From positions 1,922,001 to 1,986,000 of the forward strand of contig NZ_CP021023.1 of NCBI RefSeq assembly GCF_002117005.1: 64,000 nt of DNA, written 5' to 3'. Positions 3,514 to 45,228 of the stretch are shown here, in pieces. The stretch is from Sedimentisphaera salicampi. Its GTDB lineage: Bacteria; Planctomycetota; Phycisphaerae; Sedimentisphaerales; Sedimentisphaeraceae. The position numbers and the translations under genes were made by a program. Under the pieces are notes generated by a model. It made no database searches. It was given only the letters and a program-made list of their open reading frames with translations, and had not been told where the DNA came from. Within the stretch, counting starts at the first letter, position 1, and each line of letters begins with the position of its first letter.

Positions 3514-4383
3514 TTACCAGTGCCTCTTAGCAGGCATAAAATGTTCACACCACGAATCAGCGCCGGCGTATGCCCTCTGCCTCATGGTATCGCTGCCCTT
3601 GATAGACTTCACGCTCCCGTCGGTGTAGCCGCAGTTGAGTTTGAGGTCATCAAAGGGTGAATTATCTTTGAGCACTGTAAACCCTTCTGAATCGGTCGTA
3701 ACCCACTGCGCGGGGCTGTCATCTTTTAGGCCATAATAGGGCATACCATCTAAGCGGGTAAGCGAGCCGCCGTCGATTTTATGAGTGCTAACCCAGCTCT
3801 GGGTCGGCCTGAGCTGATTGTAGTATGCGAAGTAGTCGCTGATAAGCAGGTTGTACTGGGATTTCTTACCAGGGCCTTCAAAGCTGCCCGGGTTATTCTT
3901 GTAGGGCTTGTAGTTCCAGTAAAGCGCGTAGGAGCAGTTCAGAATTTTGTTGTTTGATTTATGGAACCAGTCATTTTTGTTCTGGTAAGCCTCCTGATAA
4001 GTAAGCGGCTCACCTTTTGGACTCATGGCAATATCTTTAGCATCAAATCCCGAAAGCGGGCAGTTAAAAACGCCCACCTCATCAATATAGCCCTTCAGAT
4101 ATTTGTATGTGTAAGTATCGCTGTTCTCAGGGTCTTGTGGGTTATAAGTTTTGTTTCTCGCGAGGGCATTCGGACGTACATGCGCACAGGGGTGTTTGGG
4201 ATAGTCGTAGTTGTCGGCATGATATGCGTTCAGCCCTATAACAGCACCGTGCATATTGCTCTTGCAGACAACATTCTTTGCCTGTTCCCTTGCCTTGCTC
4301 AAAGCCGGCATAAGCACTGCCATAAGAAGGGCAATGATGGATATCACAACCAAAAGTTCGATTAAGGTAAAAGCCTTTTTCAT
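3514..4383 (-). CDS. Type II secretion-like pseudopilin (N-methylation motif protein)
   Basis: Starting at the ATG at 4381-4383, which follows GAAAGG by seven bases, the 289-residue product opens with MKKAFTLIELLVVISIIALL. This is the class III signal and hydrophobic helix of type IV pilin-like proteins. The residue before the cleavage point is Ala rather than the usual Gly, which is common in Phycisphaerae. The helix is followed by MPALSKAREQAK and a globular domain with conserved Trp, Tyr and Cys, ending in a TDGSVKSI-type segment. These proteins are abundant in Planctomycetes, where they are thought to be exported pseudopilins with unknown cargo roles. A start nine codons upstream is less likely. 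Confidence 0.8.
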   Translation of the reverse strand: MKKAFTLIELLVVISIIALLMAVLMPALSKAREQAKNVVCKSNMHGAVIGLNAYHADNYDYPKHPCAHVRPNALARNKTYNPQDPENSDTYTYKYLKGYIDEVGVFNCPLSGFDAKDIAMSPKGEPLTYQEAYQNKNDWFHKSNNKILNCSYALYWNYKPYKNNPGSFEGPGKKSQYNLLISDYFAYYNQLRPTQSWVSTHKIDGGSLTRLDGMPYYGLKDDSPAQWVTTDSEGFTVLKDNSPFDDLKLNCGYTDGSVKSIKGSDTMRQRAYAGADSWCEHFMPAKRHW

Positions 4384-4544
4384 TTTAGAACCTTTCAATA
4401 AAAACTTCAAAAGCTCATTATAGCTTGTCGGGAAGGATATGAAACGCCAATTTTAACATTTTTTCCACTGATTTGTAAACTCTTTGGACGATAAAAACCT
4501 TCGGAGCGCAGGCTCACAGGGGGGAGATATTTTTTTCAGCCGCT

Positions 4545-4607
4545 AAGTTAATCATACAAGAACTTAAGCTTATTATAGCATCAAATAACATAAAGTTAAT
4601 CATACAA
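4545..4607. repeat. Two 15-bp direct repeats in the gene-poor region
   Basis: AAGTTAATCATACAA occurs at 4545-4559 and again at 4593-4607, 48 bases apart. The pair lies at the left edge of the candidate origin region. The surrounding 4384-4790 stretch holds no convincing gene. It does contain degenerate copies of the 'CGCTAATT...CTGATTTTCACTGATGATT' intergenic text also seen near 16.5 and 60.4 kb. Confidence 0.5.
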
Positions 4608-4789
4608 ATGCACTGAGGGGATATTTTGACGGTATTTTTTAGGTTTAAGGCAAAGGCAAAAGTTTTTTTACTCATATAGTTCCGCTGACCGAGTCCACCT
4701 TGTCCAATCGCTAATTCACGCTGATTTTCACTGATGATTCTCAGGAGACGAAGGAGAGGGTGGGTATAAATCAACATTGAACCCGCAAA

Positions 4790-30385: not shown

Positions 30386-30500
30386 AGAATCGCCTTTCAT
30401 AAAAGCTCTAAAAAATCGCTGCTTCAGAATTCAAAAGCATAATCTTCTTTATCCAAAACAAGCTATTATAGAGAATTGAGCAGGTGCGGCAAATATCATA

Positions 30501-30992
30501 CTAAACGTCTTCTGCCTTTGAATCCGCCCAAGCCTTTTTGAAAACAGAGAAAATATAAGTTAATCCTGCAAAAACAGCAAATCCTGAAAAAATCCCAGAA
30601 GCTATAAGCCAAACTCCTTCCCCACCTTCATAATCCATACTCAAGAGAAGTATTCCTTCATGCAGCAGAGATGCGGCTGTTCCGAAAAGAAGAGCAAACA
30701 GGAAATAGAGGATTGCACTGTCGTAAACTATCAAAAATCTTGATTTACGGAACACAAGCTTAAAAGCCCCTGCCCCTGCGAGGCAAATCAAATAAAGAAA
30801 GATTATCCTTATTAGATATACTATGAGCATTGTGAAATCATCTAAACAGCCCTGAGTGGAACGCAGAAAGAAAAGGGTGGTAAAACCTGAGCCAACAAGC
30901 CCGAGAACAGTGCCTATGATGAACTTCAAGGTTCTTATTGAGGTTGCCGCTGCAAGGGAGGCCGCATTTGTATTGTTTTCAGAGTTTTTCAT
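30501..30992 (-). CDS. Small four-helix membrane protein downstream of a toxin-antitoxin-like pair
   Basis: The 163-residue protein has four hydrophobic helices: about residues 24-46 (FIIGTVLGLVGSGFTTLFFL), 52-76 (MLIVYLIRIIFLYLICLAGA), 85-107 (FLIVYDSAILYFLFALLFGT) and 126-149 (LIASGIFSGFAVFAGLTYIF). No domain is recognised. It starts 30 bases after the stop of the Panacea-domain regulator and is likely on the same transcript, although no strong ribosome binding site precedes its ATG. It could be a third component (inference) or an unrelated neighbour. Confidence 0.6.
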   Translation of the reverse strand: MKNSENNTNAASLAAATSIRTLKFIIGTVLGLVGSGFTTLFFLRSTQGCLDDFTMLIVYLIRIIFLYLICLAGAGAFKLVFRKSRFLIVYDSAILYFLFALLFGTAASLLHEGILLLSMDYEGGEGVWLIASGIFSGFAVFAGLTYIFSVFKKAWADSKAEDV

Positions 30993-31022
30993 TATTTTTG
31001 ATGCAAATCGCAGTTCATTGTT

Positions 31023-32039
31023 TTAGTCCGGCATAGTAATTTTCAAATTGGTTGCATAATCATAAGTAATCAAATCTCTGTCATTGGTATGAAGCCATGC
31101 ATCTTCCTTGTGTGAAAGATCAGATATATCTTTGGCTTTCATTCCCTTAAATTTATTGGCTATGAATTCCAGCACCTTAATTTCACTTTTGGAAAATACA
31201 GACTTTAAGTCTTCTGAACTTTCAGATGTGCTGAAGTAAAAGCCGCAAATGCCGTTATCGAATTCCACCTCTTCGCTTTTAATTAGTTTGTCATCTACCA
31301 TTCTGCTAAAGGCCCCATCATAATCGGAAGGAACAGGACCAAATATAAGTCTTCTGTATGCACTTCCTGTAAGTGAAACAGTGGATTTTGCAAAGCAAAT
31401 AAAATCTGCATAGAACAGAAGCTTATTTAATACTGTTGTGCAAACCTCTCCCATTTCACTGCATAAAAAAATTACCGCTTTGCTAAAGCGTTCATAGCTG
31501 AAATTTCTATATCCTGTTATTAAAGAAATTTCATTTGGAAAACATTGTTCATTAAAGTCTTCCGTAAAAATTTGTTTTCCGGCTCCGTTATTAATTGCTT
31601 TGTTCGCTTTTTCTTTTTGCCAGCTGCTGAGCTGGCTGCCGTTTCGGGTTAATAGATCCCGTACATAATCAGCAGATTTACACGCTCTTATAAGGTTGTC
31701 ATGAGTTTTATCCTGTAAAGCACCTCTCTCATAGCGGTTTATTGTTGCCTCGCTCATCCCGAGCAGATTAGCAAAAGACCTCTGGCTCAGGCCGTATCCG
31801 GAGCGAATGTTTCTAATCTCTTCAGGGCTCAGCAGATCTGCCCTTTTTCGGTAGATCGAATAGAGCCTCAGCTGAATCTCGGCGTCCTGCTTATCGCTTC
31901 CCAGCATCTCAGAACACTTTGAACAGAATTCCCTATCCACTTCTATTTCTATGTTTTCACCGCGAATTTTGTAACTCTCGCTCACAGTTTTTGTAAACGT
32001 ATCACGAAAATCGCCGCATTTGAAACAAAATTTACTCAT
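31023..32039 (-). CDS. Zinc-finger/HTH antitoxin-like regulator with C-terminal Panacea (DUF4065) domain
   Basis: The 338-residue protein has three parts. Residues 1-50 form an MqsA-like zinc site (Cys5, Cys8, Cys39, Cys42). An XRE helix-turn-helix follows (about 73-115; LSPEEIRNIRSGYGLSQRSF and MSEATINRYERG). Residues about 175-300 match the Panacea/SocA-like DUF4065 domain (VLNKLLFYADFICFAKSTVS, LTGSAYRRLIFGPVPSDYDG). Panacea domains are known as promiscuous antitoxin modules that neutralise unrelated toxins. It lies 5 bases after a 119-residue gene that is the likely toxin. It probably autoregulates through the palindrome at 32427-32440. Confidence 0.8.
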   Translation of the reverse strand: MSKFCFKCGDFRDTFTKTVSESYKIRGENIEIEVDREFCSKCSEMLGSDKQDAEIQLRLYSIYRKRADLLSPEEIRNIRSGYGLSQRSFANLLGMSEATINRYERGALQDKTHDNLIRACKSADYVRDLLTRNGSQLSSWQKEKANKAINNGAGKQIFTEDFNEQCFPNEISLITGYRNFSYERFSKAVIFLCSEMGEVCTTVLNKLLFYADFICFAKSTVSLTGSAYRRLIFGPVPSDYDGAFSRMVDDKLIKSEEVEFDNGICGFYFSTSESSEDLKSVFSKSEIKVLEFIANKFKGMKAKDISDLSHKEDAWLHTNDRDLITYDYATNLKITMPD

Positions 32040-32044
32040 CTCAA

Positions 32045-32401
32045 TTAGTCTCCCTGTTTTAAAGGATAACGGATCTTCCGCTCTGCTTTGTGAAAAGAAA
32101 TCACAACTGCAGAATGGCCCATTTTAACCTCTTTAAGCCCTATCTTTATATATATTTCCAAGTCCTGCCAGTGCTGTCCGAATATCCATACCTGAGTGTT
32201 ATGTTCTGTATGGTGTTTATCAGGACCTGAGATATAATTTTCAGGCTTTATTGAAAAAAGAACCTCTCTTCTTTCTTCGACAAGCATTCCGGAATCAATC
32301 AGGAATTGGGAATTATCTTGCCTGTCGGCAATTACATATCTGCCAAGCTCTAAACATCCCTTGAATATCCTGAGAAAATCTGCTGCTTCAGCGAATCCCA
32401 T
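32045..32401 (-). CDS. Putative toxin partner of the Panacea-domain antitoxin
   Basis: From the ATG at 32399-32401, which has AGAGG nine bases upstream, the product has 118 residues. It is soluble, rich in aromatic and charged residues, and ends with IYIKIGLKEVKMGHSAVVIS then FHKAERKIRYPLK. That final beta-strand plus basic tail resembles small RNase toxins of the MqsR/RelE type in outline only. I cannot assign a family. Position (first in the operon, 5 bases before the MqsA/Panacea-type antitoxin, own palindromic operator) is the main reason to call it a toxin. A TTG start three codons earlier is possible. Confidence 0.5.
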   Translation of the reverse strand: MGFAEAADFLRIFKGCLELGRYVIADRQDNSQFLIDSGMLVEERREVLFSIKPENYISGPDKHHTEHNTQVWIFGQHWQDLEIYIKIGLKEVKMGHSAVVISFHKAERKIRYPLKQGD

Positions 32402-32426
32402 AGCCAGCAACCTCTAACCAATGATA

Positions 32427-32440
32427 CTATCATATGATAG
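32427..32440. promoter_or_regulatory. Perfect 14-bp palindrome, candidate operator of the toxin-antitoxin operon
   Basis: CTATCATATGATAG is a perfect palindrome 26 bases upstream of the toxin ATG. It is the expected place for autoregulation by the helix-turn-helix antitoxin. It differs from the AACCT-AGGTT box of E. coli MqsA. Confidence 0.5.
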
Positions 32441-32486
32441 CGTTTTGTTCAATGTTTTTTAAATAATTTTGTTTCAAATTTGATTT

Positions 32487-33593
32487 TTACTCATTATTTG
32501 TAACCTTGATGAGCATTTCGAGTTCTTCTGGGTGGTGAGAATATGCCTTTGCGCTTGAAACGCCGATATGCTCTTCGTTGATGAGTCTTGCCAGAGACAT
32601 ATTGAAGCTGTGCATTCCGTCGCTTCCGTCTTTGATTACATCAGAAAGCTGTGATTCCTTTTCCTCATCCCTGAGATACTGCCTTACTGAAGGGGTATTC
32701 ACAAACACTTCCGTGGCCGGTACCACTCCAAACCCCTTCTTCTCAGAGGGCAGCAGCATCTGGTTCATAATAGCGAGCAGGTTGTAGCTGAGGTTCAGCC
32801 TTACCGCATCGTGTTCGGCTTCGGTGAAGAAGTTGAGGATTCTGCTGAATGTCCACGCTGCTGTTGCTGTATGCAGAGAAGTGAGCACGAGGTGTCCGGT
32901 TTCCGCTGCCATAATAGCTGCATGCACGGTTTCAGCGTCTCGCATTTCGCCAATCATAATCACGTTTGGGTCTTCTCTCAGCACAGCTCGAAGTGCCTGA
33001 GCGTAGTTTTTGAAATCCAGCCCCAGCTCTCTTTGGTGGATAAGCCCCTTGGTATTTCGAAACACGTATTCCACCGGATCTTCGATAGTTACTAAGTGTT
33101 TCTCGGGGTATCTGCCGAGATAACCTATCATTGCGGCAAGGGTGGAGGATTTACCGCTTCCTGTTTCCCCGCCCACAATCACAATACCTTTCTGTTCGGG
33201 GTTCTCCATCACTTTCCTGTAGATAGGGGGGAGGTTGAGGTCTTCGAAGGAGGGTATCTTATAGCTGATTCTGCGCATTGCAGCGGCAGGCTTGCCCATG
33301 GAGGTGTACACCTGCATACGGTATCGTATTGGTTTGCCGTTGTATTCGGTTTCGTATGAATAGTCAACAGAGCCGTTTTCTTCGAGCAGTTTCTGGCATC
33401 GCTGCTTTTGGCTCTCCTTCAGAGTCTGATCCATAATGCTTCGAACAGTCTCTTCGCTCAGGACAGATTCCTCACCTCCCATCGCATGCAGAGACCCGTT
33501 AATTCGGAGCCGCAGTTTCCTGCCTGCGCTCAAATGGATATCCGAAGAATTGTACTTCTCGGCCGCCGCGATTATGCTGTCCAACATAGACAT
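32487..33593 (-). CDS. pilT: Twitching motility ATPase PilT
   Basis: The 368-residue hexameric ATPase has the Walker A loop GETGSGKS at residues 142-149. The Asp box follows (TIEDPVEYVFRN). Walker B is IMIGEMRDAET, and the His box is AAETGHLVLTSLHTATA. These features and the length place it in PilT/PilU, which powers type IV pilus retraction. The usual AIRNLIRE motif near the C-terminus is not clear here, so it may be PilU-like. No other pilus genes are adjacent. A short GC hairpin CGGGCT/AGCCCG (33660-33674) lies in its upstream region. Confidence 0.88.
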   Translation of the reverse strand: MSMLDSIIAAAEKYNSSDIHLSAGRKLRLRINGSLHAMGGEESVLSEETVRSIMDQTLKESQKQRCQKLLEENGSVDYSYETEYNGKPIRYRMQVYTSMGKPAAAMRRISYKIPSFEDLNLPPIYRKVMENPEQKGIVIVGGETGSGKSSTLAAMIGYLGRYPEKHLVTIEDPVEYVFRNTKGLIHQRELGLDFKNYAQALRAVLREDPNVIMIGEMRDAETVHAAIMAAETGHLVLTSLHTATAAWTFSRILNFFTEAEHDAVRLNLSYNLLAIMNQMLLPSEKKGFGVVPATEVFVNTPSVRQYLRDEEKESQLSDVIKDGSDGMHSFNMSLARLINEEHIGVSSAKAYSHHPEELEMLIKVTNNE

Positions 33594-39648: not shown

Positions 39649-40617
39649 TTATAATAGCATTTTTTTCCCGCATATGTTGTAATATTCATCTAACATTATT
39701 TTATAGCTTTCAAGCGGCATAGATTTGAATATACAGTTTGAAGTTGAGAAAATATAACGCTTACCGAATCCACCGTGCTGCATACAATATCGAACTGATT
39801 CACGTATTGATTCATCATTAACATCCTGCAGCATATTGCAGGCAACATTGCCCATAAGCAGCCAGTCGGGATACTGATTTCTTACTTCCTTTATGTCCAT
39901 ACTTCCCTGAGGGTCTATTGACTGGTATCCATCGACTTTAGTTGAGGCAATTTGATCGAGGATATCATTCAAATTCCCGTCAGAATGAAGAATAACCTTG
40001 AGGCCTATGTTATGCATATATTCGATTATTTCGGCCATGTAAGGTGTGCAAAATTCGGCGAAGTGTTTTGGAGATATAAACGGGCCGCTGTTAAATCCAA
40101 AATCTGTGTTCTGAACTATGAAATCTGCTCCTGATTCTTTTTGAATTTTTGCCAGCTGCTTTGCCTTATCGCATTTTTCGCGAGCCTCTTTATGCAGCTG
40201 TTCCGGGTGTTCAAAAAGCCTGACGACAAAATCCATCATTTCCGAACCTGTCGGCATCCAAAAGACTCCGTCGGGGCTGAAAGAGAAGACAAGCGCTCTT
40301 TCTCCCACAGCTTTTTTCATCTCTTCAAGGCCTTTTGCGTAATCTACTTCCCCTCCGCCGGGAGCTGGTACAGCAGCCCAGTGAAATCTTTCCATCACCT
40401 GAACGTAAAGCTCCCTGTGATAATCTATTATAGCCTGCTGCCGTTTTTGGGGGCTCTGGCCTTCTATCTGTTCTACGAGCTCATCCCAGCTTATACCAAA
40501 GCATATTTTATCGAGCTGGAACTGAAGTTCGAAGTGTGGAGGGAAAGCCGGCACATTCCCCGAGAGTAAGGTTTCAAGTTGTTTCTTACCTTCGAGAGAA
40601 GATTGAATATCTATCAT
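39649..40617 (-). CDS. Uroporphyrinogen decarboxylase-family protein
   Basis: From the ATG at 40615-40617, which follows GGGGAT, the 322-residue product has the UroD-like barrel with PAFPPHFELQFQ near the start. Further segments are SGADFIVQNTDFGFNSGPFI and KVILHSDGNLNDILDQIA. The methyltransferase zinc motif His-x-Cys is replaced by HSDGN, as in many uncharacterised UroD-family proteins of Planctomycetes and Lentisphaerae. It is therefore not the heme enzyme HemE and perhaps not a corrinoid methyltransferase. It ends the operon 43511-39649, with only 20 bases between it and the GxGYxYP gene. Confidence 0.78.
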   Translation of the reverse strand: MIDIQSSLEGKKQLETLLSGNVPAFPPHFELQFQLDKICFGISWDELVEQIEGQSPQKRQQAIIDYHRELYVQVMERFHWAAVPAPGGGEVDYAKGLEEMKKAVGERALVFSFSPDGVFWMPTGSEMMDFVVRLFEHPEQLHKEAREKCDKAKQLAKIQKESGADFIVQNTDFGFNSGPFISPKHFAEFCTPYMAEIIEYMHNIGLKVILHSDGNLNDILDQIASTKVDGYQSIDPQGSMDIKEVRNQYPDWLLMGNVACNMLQDVNDESIRESVRYCMQHGGFGKRYIFSTSNCIFKSMPLESYKIMLDEYYNICGKKMLL

Positions 40618-40637
40618 ATTATCCCCATTCAAATTGC

Positions 40638-42377
40638 TTATTTATCAATAGATTTCAAATACAGGTCTCTGAATATCCGTGGGGATATTGCCTGATATTC
40701 ATTTCCCAGCATCTCAGTTACCTTCAGCAGGTCGGTTGGGAAGTAAGACCAGCTTAACGGATGAACCATAATAAATGCAGGGCGTTTTTTGGGAGTATGC
40801 TTCCTGATTTCGTTAGCCAGCCACTGCTGATTTTCTTTATTCGGGTAGGTGTTTTTTGTGTCCCATCTTGTTACCACGTGAGATACGAGGGAGTCTTCTT
40901 GGCCAAGCAAATAATTATGACCCTGTTTAACAATGTTTTTGTCTCGGCCTAAGCCCAGAATAAAAGTATCTATATTTTCGAGCGAATTAACGAATTTCTT
41001 CGTTACAGGGTCATTTTCTTTACGGTCAAATTCCAGCCATGCATCTGTGTATAATCCGAGTTCTTCTATGCCGGTAAATTCGGCATACTCATCAATAATC
41101 GTGAAGTATCTGTCCCAAGCCTGCTCTGGATTTTTGGTTTTCGAGCAGAAATCTCTGTATGGATGGCAGTATCCTGCCCCTGATATGCAAAAATAGAAAT
41201 AATCATTGGCTTTTGCGTTGTCATAGAACCATTCAACCATTGGTGCACTCATTTCTAAAGAAGAAACGGTAATACCCCAGCCGATGGGCAATTTGCCCCT
41301 GTTTTCGTCTTTCCATACTTCAGCCTGAATAGCTTGCCAGTATGCCGGAGCGTCGCCGGAATCCTGTATTACGAATGAAAGGTAAACTTTATCATCTTCC
41401 AGTTTTGGAACAGAGTAGTCTTTCTTTGCCTGATACCTTTTTATCATCGAGGCAAAGTCAACGGAGATCCCGCTCAATGCGCTGTAATTCGCTCCCCAGT
41501 TTGTTCCGAGGGTTATCATTCCGTACTCTCCGGCTATACCAACGCCTCCGTATTCGGTAAGACCAATATCATCTTCGCCGCCGTCAAGCCAGCCCACCAG
41601 CGGTGCGCAGGGAGGCATTTTAGACATCAGTTTCCTCGCGAACTTCAGTTCAGCCTCGGAATCTGCCTCGGGATTATCCTGCACATTGGCCCCGGTTACC
41701 CAAAACTGAAAAATCTTATGCCTGATTAAATAATCCCGAAGATGATGTTCGGCATAAGTTGGGTGCTGGCATGAGAGCATTTTATGGTTCATTTTATCCC
41801 ACAGATTCTCGTATGCCCATTTGTAGGCATCAACGTTTTTCTTCCATCTTCCGCTAAGGTGAATAACTTCTTTTCCATCGCTGAACTTGTCTAAGTCGCT
41901 CTTTGAAATAACAATCGCATCATCCAGAGAGCACATCATTGTTGCGACATTTATACTGGCCTCCAAGTTCGGGTCGCAAACGATCACCTTGCTGTAAGCA
42001 TCTTTGTATTTCGCAAAGTATGTATCTAAGTCTATTTGCTTATAGTTTTTTATATGGTTTTTCTGTTTGAAATAGTCGAGCCAGAAATCCATTTTGGTGT
42101 GGGCTCTTTCATCCGCCTCTTTATCTTTGTATACAAGCATAAAAACTCTGCTTTTTTCGCCGGAGTTAACTTTGCCCTGAAGCGTAATCGCTGCCAGTTT
42201 TGTTTCAGGGCTGCAATTCCGGAGATCCACAAGGTCAACGTTTTCTGCAAGCGGTGAGCCCTTAGGCAGTATCTGCAATTCTGGTTTTTGCTTGAAGTCA
42301 TGGGTGATTTTGTTTGACATTCCAAAGCAGCAGCTGCAGGCAAAAAGGATTGCCAGTGATTTTAAGGTTATTTTCAT
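40638..42377 (-). CDS. Secreted GxGYxYP-domain protein
   Basis: From the ATG at 42375-42377, preceded by GGAAC, the product has 579 residues and a signal peptide (MKITLKSLAILFACSCCFGM). The mid part has the GxGYxxP signature as ISGAGYCHPYRDF, preceded by PIGWGITVSSLEMSAPMVEW. Together these match the GxGYxYP putative glycoside-hydrolase-like family. An N-terminal domain of about 220 residues (VDLVDLRNCSPETKLAAITL) precedes it, as in that family. The family has no proven activity. It sits between two UroD-family genes with 20-21 base gaps, so it is clearly part of their operon. Confidence 0.75.
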   Translation of the reverse strand: MKITLKSLAILFACSCCFGMSNKITHDFKQKPELQILPKGSPLAENVDLVDLRNCSPETKLAAITLQGKVNSGEKSRVFMLVYKDKEADERAHTKMDFWLDYFKQKNHIKNYKQIDLDTYFAKYKDAYSKVIVCDPNLEASINVATMMCSLDDAIVISKSDLDKFSDGKEVIHLSGRWKKNVDAYKWAYENLWDKMNHKMLSCQHPTYAEHHLRDYLIRHKIFQFWVTGANVQDNPEADSEAELKFARKLMSKMPPCAPLVGWLDGGEDDIGLTEYGGVGIAGEYGMITLGTNWGANYSALSGISVDFASMIKRYQAKKDYSVPKLEDDKVYLSFVIQDSGDAPAYWQAIQAEVWKDENRGKLPIGWGITVSSLEMSAPMVEWFYDNAKANDYFYFCISGAGYCHPYRDFCSKTKNPEQAWDRYFTIIDEYAEFTGIEELGLYTDAWLEFDRKENDPVTKKFVNSLENIDTFILGLGRDKNIVKQGHNYLLGQEDSLVSHVVTRWDTKNTYPNKENQQWLANEIRKHTPKKRPAFIMVHPLSWSYFPTDLLKVTEMLGNEYQAISPRIFRDLYLKSIDK

Positions 42378-42398
42378 TTTCAGTTCCAATTAAATAAG

Positions 42399-43511
42399 TT
42401 ATTTAAAGTTTTCTGCGGTTTCAACCATAGTCTGAACGTTTTCTAAAGGGATGTCATAGAAGAGGTAGTCTGAGGCTGCTATCATATGTTTTGTACCTTT
42501 TGTGGCCTCGCAAAGGTCTAATGTGGCCTGAGCGACCTGTTCTTTTGAGCCGTTGAGGAGCAAATCAAGGCCTATATTGCCTCTCGTGCAGATATTATCA
42601 TCCATTATCTCCCGAGCCTTTTCAATAGATTCTACGTTTCCTACAGGCGGGGGAGAGAAGGTTTCAAACAGGTCGAGACCCATTTGGTTATAGAAGCCCA
42701 TAGTCAAGAAAGGCTCAATAGGCGAACATATATGGCTGTAAATAAGTCTGCCGCAGCCGTGGACTACATCGGTGAGTTTCTGAGAGTCCGGGATGATGTA
42801 TTTTTCGTAAAATTCCGGAGAAAGCATTTCCGACCCGGGGGCGCCAAGAAAAACAAAATCGACATCCGTCTTAAAAACTTCTTCAAGCAGAGCGGCATTT
42901 ATATCCCTTATATGGTCGCATGTTTGGCGGAACTGCTCAGGGTAGAGTTTTGCAAGGAGCACAAGGTTATCTACGGATGTCAAACCGAACAATTCGAACG
43001 GCTGTATGTTCCACTGAAGCGAAACAGGACCGTGGTTTTTCAGTTTATCCACATCAGGCTGAATCTTATCAGCAACCCTGTCCTTATATTTATAATGCTG
43101 ATCCGCAAACCATTTTATCATATTGAAAGCATTTTCATTGTCATCTACTGTTACAGGGTATTTCATTATCATAGTGCCGATTTTTGGCAACTCATGAAAT
43201 TTCCAGTCAAGCTGTCCGAAAGGTGTTTCCAGATGGGTGTTTGTGAACTTTTCGCCCTCAGTTTCACTGTTTTCCGTTTCATATGGCAAATCAGGTGCTA
43301 ATTGTTCAAGCCCCGGAAGTCCTATATTGAAAAGCGGGAATCCTCCTACAATTTCATAAGCCCTGATTGTGTCATCTAATGTCCCTTGGCTGTTCCACTG
43401 TTTACCGGCTAATTTTACGTCAAAACCTGCTCCGGCGCCAATCTGAAGCGATACGAACGGTTTTGTTGAGCCCTTTTTCACACACTCGATGAATTCATTT
43501 CCGGCATTCAT
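42399..43511 (-). CDS. Uroporphyrinogen decarboxylase-family protein (first gene of operon)
   Basis: The 370-residue product has a UroD-like barrel. FVFLGAPGSEMLSPEFYEKY and LIYSHICSPIEPFLTM carry the putative zinc ligand pair His-x-Cys. CTRGNIGLDLLLNGSKEQVA and HMIAASDYLFYDIPLENVQT follow. It differs from the second UroD-like gene of the operon, which has HSDGN at that point. The ATG has AAAGGAGA nine bases upstream. It heads the operon and faces the GntR/LacI-type regulator across a 562-bp gap. Confidence 0.78.
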   Translation of the reverse strand: MNAGNEFIECVKKGSTKPFVSLQIGAGAGFDVKLAGKQWNSQGTLDDTIRAYEIVGGFPLFNIGLPGLEQLAPDLPYETENSETEGEKFTNTHLETPFGQLDWKFHELPKIGTMIMKYPVTVDDNENAFNMIKWFADQHYKYKDRVADKIQPDVDKLKNHGPVSLQWNIQPFELFGLTSVDNLVLLAKLYPEQFRQTCDHIRDINAALLEEVFKTDVDFVFLGAPGSEMLSPEFYEKYIIPDSQKLTDVVHGCGRLIYSHICSPIEPFLTMGFYNQMGLDLFETFSPPPVGNVESIEKAREIMDDNICTRGNIGLDLLLNGSKEQVAQATLDLCEATKGTKHMIAASDYLFYDIPLENVQTMVETAENFK

Positions 43512-43786
43512 TTTTTTCTCCTTTATCTATACTTTCGGCAAAGTTTTGTAATTAAATTATGTGGGGGGATTAAAACTAACGAAGAGGCTTATAAATGCCC
43601 TTGAAAAATATTTTTAAGAATGATTTAATATAGAAGGCTGCGATTGTTTTCCAGTAACACATATAATATCCTCAAAATTTTGTTGTATCTCTTCCTTTAA
43701 ATAAACGCTTCTATTAAAATGCCTTCCAGCTTTTGTCAAAACAGGTTAACTGTATTTATGCACACATAAAAATACACATTATTGTT

Positions 43787-43800
43787 TTAAGTATGTATAA
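43787..43800 (+). promoter_or_regulatory. Candidate operator, upstream copy
   Basis: TTAAGTATGTATAA matches 13 of 14 bases of the sequence overlapping the regulator's -10 region at 44037-44050. It lies just right of the 16-bp palindrome at 43755-43770. It is a plausible site for the GntR-type protein near the UroD operon promoter. Confidence 0.4.
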
Positions 43801-44022
43801 ATTTTGTGCAAGTGAATATATCAAAAAAATTGAAATGTAAAAGGAAAATCTTAAAAAAACGAAAAAAAACACGTAAATATTTAATGTTCATTGGCCTCAT
43901 AAAGGGTTTTTTAATGGGCGAGACTATTTTCTTTACGTTATATAAAACAGCGGTTTATGAATAAGCAGAAATTTTTTCAATCTGCGGTATTGCATAAAAA
44001 CAAAAAATATTTGTACTTTGTG

Positions 44023-44051
44023 TTGACAGGAATGTATTAAGTATGTACAAT
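44023..44051 (+). promoter_or_regulatory. Strong sigma-70 promoter of the GntR-type regulator with overlapping operator
   Basis: TTGACA (44023-44028), a 17-base spacer and TACAAT (44046-44051) form a near-consensus promoter. The motif TTAAGTATGTACAA (44037-44050) covers the spacer end and most of the -10, as expected for self-repression. The ATG follows 22 bases later. Confidence 0.7.
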
Positions 44052-44073
44052 GCCATCATAATTTGGAGATATC

Positions 44074-45228
44074 ATGGCAAACGGCAAAACAAAAGGATTC
44101 AGTTCGAATCAAGGAAAAGGCAGCAATAAGCCTTTATACGAACAGTTAAAGCAGCGTCTTAAAGACACTATCCAGTCAGAGCGGCTCAAAGCAGGCGATC
44201 GCCTTCCCCCTATTTATCTGCTTTCCCGAGAGTGGGATGTAAATTACCGCACCTTGCGGTCAGCCTTCGAATTACTGGAAAATGAAGGCTTGATTTCTTA
44301 TGAAACTAATAAAGGCGCAGTTGTCCTTGATAATTCTGAGAAGGCTTCAAGAGTATCAATCAGTTATATCAGGTGGCAGAGAGATTCATTCTGTGTCGCT
44401 TTGTATGAAGGGATAAACAGATTTTGCGAGGAGCATAATGTTGAGCTGACTATGATTGATGCTACCAATTCGCATGATTTGTTTATTAATGCTATTTTGA
44501 ATCCCCCTAATGATTCTCAGGGGCTTTTAATAGTACCAGAAATTCTTCCGGAATATAAAGATGCTGTTAAGCAGGTTATTTCTAAGGGCAAAAAGGTCGT
44601 TTTTCTCGACCGCCTAATACCCGGGATCGAAACGAGTTCTGTCTCTGCCGACCATTTTACCGGCGCATACAAGGCGTGCAGTCATTTGCTTGAAACTCAT
44701 CACTGCCCTGTGGGCTATATTGGTTATGTTCACGCACCTACTTCTTGCAAACTTTGGGTTGAAGGATGGCAGGAAGCAATGAGGAATCACAACTATTTTG
44801 ACCATGACCCATATTGCACCGACCTTATGGCTTTCGAAAAAGGGATAACGTATGGCTCTGATAACTTCGAATGCATTAAAGACGCCGCCAGAAGTCTTTT
44901 AGGCAGGATGTCAAAAGAGCAAAGCCCTGTCTGCATCTTTACCGGCAATAACTATGTGGCTAAAGGTGTTTATGAGACCGTTGGAGAATTTGATATGAAA
45001 GTCGGGGAAGATGTATTTCTTGCAAGTATTGGTGAAGGTCCTCTCGGGCAAAGTTTTCCTGTACCGCTCACCACGGTTTTTCTGGACAGTCAGCAGGTTG
45101 GCTATGACGGAGCAAGAGTGCTTTATGACAGGATAACCGGCAATTTAGAGAAATCAGTACACCTGCTCAATCCAGTGGAGCTGAAAATTGAAGAAAGCAG
45201 TGTGGGCAAAAAAATGGCCTCAAAATAG
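44074..45228 (+). CDS. GntR-HTH/LacI-type ligand-binding transcriptional regulator
   Basis: The 384-residue protein has a GntR winged helix in residues about 18-88 (PLYEQLKQRLKDTI, AGDRLPPIYLLSREWDVNYR, LENEGLISYETNKGAVVLD). A periplasmic-binding-protein-like domain of the LacI/GalR kind follows (about 98-375; VVFLDRLIPGIETSSVSADH, GYIGYVHAPTSC, CIFTGNNYVAKGVYETVGEF). Such AraR-like regulators respond to sugars. It faces the UroD/GxGYxYP operon, which it probably controls together with its own gene through the repeated 14-base motif. The start is ATG after GGAGATATC. Confidence 0.88.
   Translation: MANGKTKGFSSNQGKGSNKPLYEQLKQRLKDTIQSERLKAGDRLPPIYLLSREWDVNYRTLRSAFELLENEGLISYETNKGAVVLDNSEKASRVSISYIRWQRDSFCVALYEGINRFCEEHNVELTMIDATNSHDLFINAILNPPNDSQGLLIVPEILPEYKDAVKQVISKGKKVVFLDRLIPGIETSSVSADHFTGAYKACSHLLETHHCPVGYIGYVHAPTSCKLWVEGWQEAMRNHNYFDHDPYCTDLMAFEKGITYGSDNFECIKDAARSLLGRMSKEQSPVCIFTGNNYVAKGVYETVGEFDMKVGEDVFLASIGEGPLGQSFPVPLTTVFLDSQQVGYDGARVLYDRITGNLEKSVHLLNPVELKIEESSVGKKMASK

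Follow-up and report, generated by a model that had tools for sequence, protein, structure and literature searches.

Layout of the locus

On the reverse strand of the window, the whole 64,000-nucleotide stretch of Sedimentisphaera salicampi DNA analysed here, three genes follow one another closely: an MqsR-family toxin gene encoding 118 residues (32045..32401, with its ATG at 32401 and its stop codon ending at 32045), an MqsA–Panacea antitoxin gene encoding 338 residues (31023..32039), and an orphan gene (30501..30992) for a 163-residue membrane protein with about four transmembrane segments. The gaps are short, with 5 bases (32040–32044) between toxin and antitoxin and 30 bases between antitoxin and membrane gene. 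An earlier, sequence-only reading had described just such a row, a 118-residue gene, an MqsA-like regulator 5 bases on and a 163-residue membrane gene after a further 30, and the coordinates confirm it, as do, for the last gene, its span of 30992–30501 and its roughly four hydrophobic segments. AGAGG precedes the toxin ATG, and the ribosome-binding sequence of the antitoxin gene, GGGAG, falls inside the 3′ end of the toxin gene, so that the pair is probably coupled.

That relatives of both toxin and antitoxin adjoin, with their order unchanged, in other phyla argues that these two genes are real; for the 163-residue reading frame the argument is one of length and composition only. Neither an Rfam nor a tRNA scan gave a match in the window. 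Further along, at 39649–45228, lies a lower-GC block encoding two URO-D-like proteins, a GxGYxYP putative glycoside hydrolase and a GntR/periplasmic-binding regulator, probably a carbohydrate-use cluster.

The first gene encodes a divergent MqsR-group toxin

The single Pfam match of the 118-residue protein is to MqsR_toxin (PF15723), at 13.5 bits and thus below the cut-off of 26.2; nine of 15 relatives match the same model at E ≤ 1 (best 3e-4), and in profile comparison the family profile matches E. coli MqsR at E 1.7e-5 with a probability of 79%. The predicted structure (pLDDT 82) has E. coli MqsR as its best PDB match (3hi2_D; Z 10.0, rmsd 2.5, 91/91 residues; Foldseek probability 1.00, TMt 0.74), followed at Z 6.3 by RelE-type toxins. 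As modelled, then, the protein has the MqsR fold, at 13% sequence identity to the E. coli toxin. A PDB sequence search gave no meaningful match, a direct scan of genome contigs with the toxin none at all (one with the antitoxin did give matches), and a PF15723 search of 179 genomes none either, but as the control genomes likewise lacked a match this last search is uninformative.

Fold, profile comparison and gene neighbourhood together rule out a new toxin family: the protein is a divergent MqsR-group toxin. The earlier suggestion of a “candidate new toxin” therefore survives in one half, since the first gene is the toxin of a toxin–antitoxin (TA) operon, and falls in the other, since the toxin is of a known kind.

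E. coli MqsR requires Lys56 and Tyr81 (PMC9636575). Tyr81 corresponds to Tyr84 of the window toxin and is invariant in 15 relatives, and Lys86 (E. coli Lys83), Ser102 and Phe103 are likewise kept between the window toxin and MqsR. The Lys56 position is Ser58 in the window toxin and varies across the clade (n = 15: S, S, A, A, A, R, K, K, E, R, K, Q, K, Q, K), in a loop where the alignment is less certain than round Tyr84 and His104; of the E. coli pair, the window toxin thus keeps the tyrosine alone. At the position of Lys96 sits His104, a histidine found in 15/15 toxin relatives and in three more, whereas Lys56 and Lys96 are both invariant in nine classical MqsR proteins. The relatives are a small sample collected with the window query and need not represent all Panacea-linked MqsR. 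Since Lys56 is not kept, we file the toxin as MqsR-like (superfamily shared, clade divergent) and not as canonical MqsR.

From these alignments we infer that the toxin would use a Tyr/His site and that, with Ser58 in place of the essential lysine, its RNA cleavage has to follow another chemistry or be less efficient. A serious contender, if somewhat short of an even chance, is that the MqsR-like fold acts through another active site (Tyr84 with His104) or on another target, so that the protein belongs to a subfamily distinct in function from the plain MqsR mRNA interferases. The variability at Lys56 set against the invariance of both lysines in classical MqsR, the clade-wide histidine and the loss of all but the tyrosine of the E. 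coli pair point that way, but the tyrosine, lysine, serine and phenylalanine shared with MqsR do not, the toxin of a Bacillus fungorum MqsR–Panacea pair is non-toxic once its predicted catalytic tyrosine is changed (PMC10440598), and an RNase with histidine as acid or base would still cleave mRNA.

The antitoxin joins MqsA to Panacea

The 338-residue antitoxin matches the NCBIfam MqsA model TIGR03830 (7.7e-28, 96.8 bits), Pfam MqsA_antitoxin PF15731 (6.2e-11, 43 bits) and SocA_Panacea PF13274 (2.2e-20, 74.1 bits, above the cut-off of 25.7). Its zinc domain occupies residues about 1–65, its helix-turn-helix (HTH) about 66–125 and Panacea 204–315, and all four cysteines of the CxxC...CxxC zinc motif (Cys5, Cys8, Cys39 and Cys42) are retained. 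The sequence-only reading had seen a zinc/HTH regulator fused to Panacea, which the three model matches and the cysteines uphold; it had also credited Panacea with neutralising toxins, and here it needs amending. In B. fungorum PanA, for which the same order of zinc domain (ZBD), HTH and C-terminal Panacea is stated, it is the zinc domain that neutralises, Panacea being dispensable (PMC10440598).

Toxin and antitoxin remain linked in distant relatives

A toxin relative lies immediately upstream in 8/8 planctomycete antitoxin relatives, which together with the domain matches bears out the earlier proposal of a TA operon with an MqsA–Panacea antitoxin. A phylum sample added one further toxin/antitoxin pair (G343), the only locus of those retrieved with the MqsA part, and it has the toxin too. 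By tblastn, toxin relatives occur on plasmids of Fibrella, Tenacibaculum, Bacteroides, Clostridioides, Fusobacteria and Paenibacillus and in one Marinitoga phage; they adjoin SocA/Panacea/MqsA antitoxins, several carry the annotation MqsR family toxin, and the toxin-upstream-of-antitoxin order recurs on Bacteroidota, Bacillota and Fusobacteriota plasmids and in that phage. Altogether a toxin relative stands beside a Panacea domain, seen or annotated, in 16 loci, plasmids and phage included, and a further locus is truncated where its contig ends; the toxin family thus does occur next to other Panacea genes, as the sequence-only reading had proposed to check. In one planctomycete locus (L010) the contig stops before Panacea. 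The exceptions to the linkage are two loci without a Panacea match. On a Pediococcus plasmid (L090, 1642–2989) the toxin relative precedes genes for an HTH antitoxin and a SecB-like chaperone, an arrangement of the toxin–antitoxin–chaperone (TAC) type with no Panacea fusion. A scan of viral contigs with a related toxin gave no match.

In another planctomycete locus, L009, the toxin is frameshifted (2654–2991), the one observation in favour of reading the window operon as a decayed or silent remnant. Against it stand three intact reading frames in the window, a conserved promoter palindrome (below) and the retained zinc cysteines, and we regard decay as very improbable.

Other small genes follow the antitoxin in these loci. 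L009 encodes a 220-residue protein (4014–4676), without a Pfam match, that starts 3 bases past the antitoxin, and on a Fusobacteria plasmid (L016, 4335–5089) genes for 95 and 155 residues, unrelated to the window membrane protein, come after the Panacea antitoxin, the 155-residue product having one N-terminal hydrophobic segment.

A conserved palindrome lies within the putative promoter

Upstream of the toxin gene, a perfect palindrome, CTATCATATGATAG (32427..32440), is a candidate operator: it is the sole perfect copy in the genome and is kept in nine planctomycete loci. Putative reverse-strand promoter hexamers surround it—TTGAAC at −35 (32447..32452; TTGACA in several relatives) and TAGTAT at −10 (32424..32429), which overlaps the palindrome end—with a 17-base spacer containing most of the palindrome. 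Mean pairwise identity across the nine loci is 83% inside the palindrome but only 28% in the sequence upstream and 39% in that downstream; no real site falls below the best of 500 shuffles, and the core TATCATATGATA also occurs upstream of a fusobacterial toxin.

By analogy with MqsA, CTATCATATGATAG would be the operator through which the antitoxin binds and represses its own operon. The motif differs from that of E. coli, where MqsA binds AACCT(N)AGGTT (PMC4894380). A wider palindrome regulon was considered and rejected, near-matches in the own genome and in 392 genomes being near control level. Separately, a Bacteroides plasmid (L013, 2837–2882) has a perfect 46-base palindrome just 5′ of a related toxin gene, which may be an operator or an attenuator.

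The operon occupies an exchange slot

Alignment by blastn against the sister genome (G001) stops at 30453 and restarts at 32488, delimiting an exchanged segment of 30454..32487: the flanks are homologous on both sides, a pilT-like ATPase beside the slot being 97% identical in the sister species, and all DNA between them differs. The corresponding slot of the sister genome, between pilT and GH43 (L035, 7902–9915), holds an IS30-like transposase and a 233-residue AAA_15 ATPase that resembles AriA/GajA/Old, a defence-type gene remnant. The toxin, sought in 98 relatives, was found only in the window's own genome, and GC3 is 0.37–0.38 in the toxin, antitoxin and membrane genes against 0.46–0.62 in their neighbours. 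The different insert in the sister slot and the foreign GC3 of the three genes mark the cassette as horizontally exchanged cargo; this is a small exchange slot into which the three genes probably came together.

The trailing membrane gene

Hydropathy places hydrophobic segments of the 163-residue protein near residues 24–43, 48–82, 84–117 and 126–152; its structure model (pLDDT 63) is too poor for a structure search. With no SecB match and no Pfam match, it is not the SecB-like operon chaperone of TAC. No credible relative appeared in related TA loci, in about 490 planctomycete genomes or among plasmids, phages and viral contigs, the weak matches (E 0.0007–0.1) being unrelated longer reading frames or short hydrophobic stretches. 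An eight-codon reading frame (ATGAACTGCGATTTGCATCAAAAATAA) lies before the gene (30993–31022), its TAATG end overlapping the gene start, and is possibly a leader or a chance occurrence.

The protein may nonetheless be a component of the system, its adjacency and composition being the sole points in favour. A three-part module, in which it would either act at the membrane as a sensor for, or tether of, the DNA-binding antitoxin or be a further effector, and so be a third part comparable to the SecB-like chaperone of TAC systems, would account for the 30-base gap on a shared strand, the GC3 of 0.38 matching that of toxin and antitoxin, the position within the exchanged segment and, by parallel, the SecB-like third gene of the Pediococcus locus. 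Its absence from every set searched and the lack of an obvious Shine–Dalgarno-like sequence ahead of its start weigh against this, and we consider such a module improbable; a specific form, in which the protein would sense envelope damage or infection and act on Panacea, in the place of the SecB-like chaperone of MqsRAC, is if anything a shade less probable still. The earlier idea of a third component or second effector thus fares poorly, the protein being missing from all related loci seen. Caulobacter HigX, a membrane-associated transcription factor downstream of higBA that is independent of that TA pair (PMC13384398), is a precedent for caution in taking a downstream membrane gene as a TA component. 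Most likely the membrane protein is a co-acquired passenger.

Discussion

Taking together what was observed, namely the order of the genes, their domains, the toxin fold, the conservation of both the linkage and the promoter palindrome, and the replacement of the slot in the sister species, we consider it very probable that this is a horizontally acquired type II TA operon, in which an MqsR-fold endoribonuclease is paired with an autorepressing MqsA–Panacea antitoxin whose Panacea domain probably serves in sensing. By analogy with the B. fungorum and L. rossiae homologues and with E. coli MqsRA, the free toxin would cut mRNA and halt translation; the N-terminal zinc domain of the antitoxin would bind and block it; an HTH dimer would repress the operon by binding the palindrome that lies between its −35 and −10 elements; and the C-terminal Panacea domain would probably sense a trigger, most likely related to infection, that frees the toxin.

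The pairing of MqsR with a Panacea antitoxin is already known, predicted before 2022 and demonstrated in 2023 (PMC8832971, PMC10440598): Kurata et al. 2022 (PMC8832971) found MqsR-like toxins to be the most frequent of the recognised partners of Panacea, and the 2023 NetFlax paper validates MqsR:PanA pairs and contains the proposal that Panacea is a sensor (PMC10440598). Against our preferred explanation count the sub-threshold PF15723 score of the window toxin, its serine at the Lys56 position and one published result, as the MqsR of a cloned Herbaspirillum MqsR–PanA pair is toxic in E. coli and its PanA gave no rescue (PMC8832971). In architecture the window operon is most readily likened to MqsR-D2:PanA of Bacillus fungorum and Lactobacillus rossiae (PMC10440598, PMC8832971), with which it shares an MqsR-type toxin and a PanA antitoxin; it differs in coming from Planctomycetota and in its trailing orphan membrane gene. 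With E. coli MqsRA (3HI2) it has in common the toxin fold and Tyr81/Lys83 equivalents, a CxxC...CxxC and HTH antitoxin, the toxin-first order and a palindromic operator (in the window, a candidate), whereas the low toxin identity, the replacement of Lys56 and Lys96 by Ser58 and His104, the extra Panacea domain and the different candidate operator set it apart. The MqsRAC systems, of TAC type (PMC9519451, PMC5105189), likewise combine an MqsR-type toxin and an MqsA-type antitoxin with an add-on control module, there a separate SecB-like chaperone and here a fused Panacea domain with no SecB gene; MqsRAC is anti-phage, guarding E. coli against phage T2 (PMC9519451).

The operon extends a tested TA type to Planctomycetota. 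The cited MqsR and Panacea papers do not discuss three features described here: an invariant histidine accompanying loss of the E. coli catalytic lysine in a mostly Panacea-linked clade, a conserved candidate operator embedded in the promoter, and a single toxin family with two kinds of partner, an antitoxin fused to Panacea and, in one relative, an HTH antitoxin accompanied by SecB. This last exchange, in which HTH antitoxin and SecB stand in Panacea's stead, fits Panacea as a sensing module.
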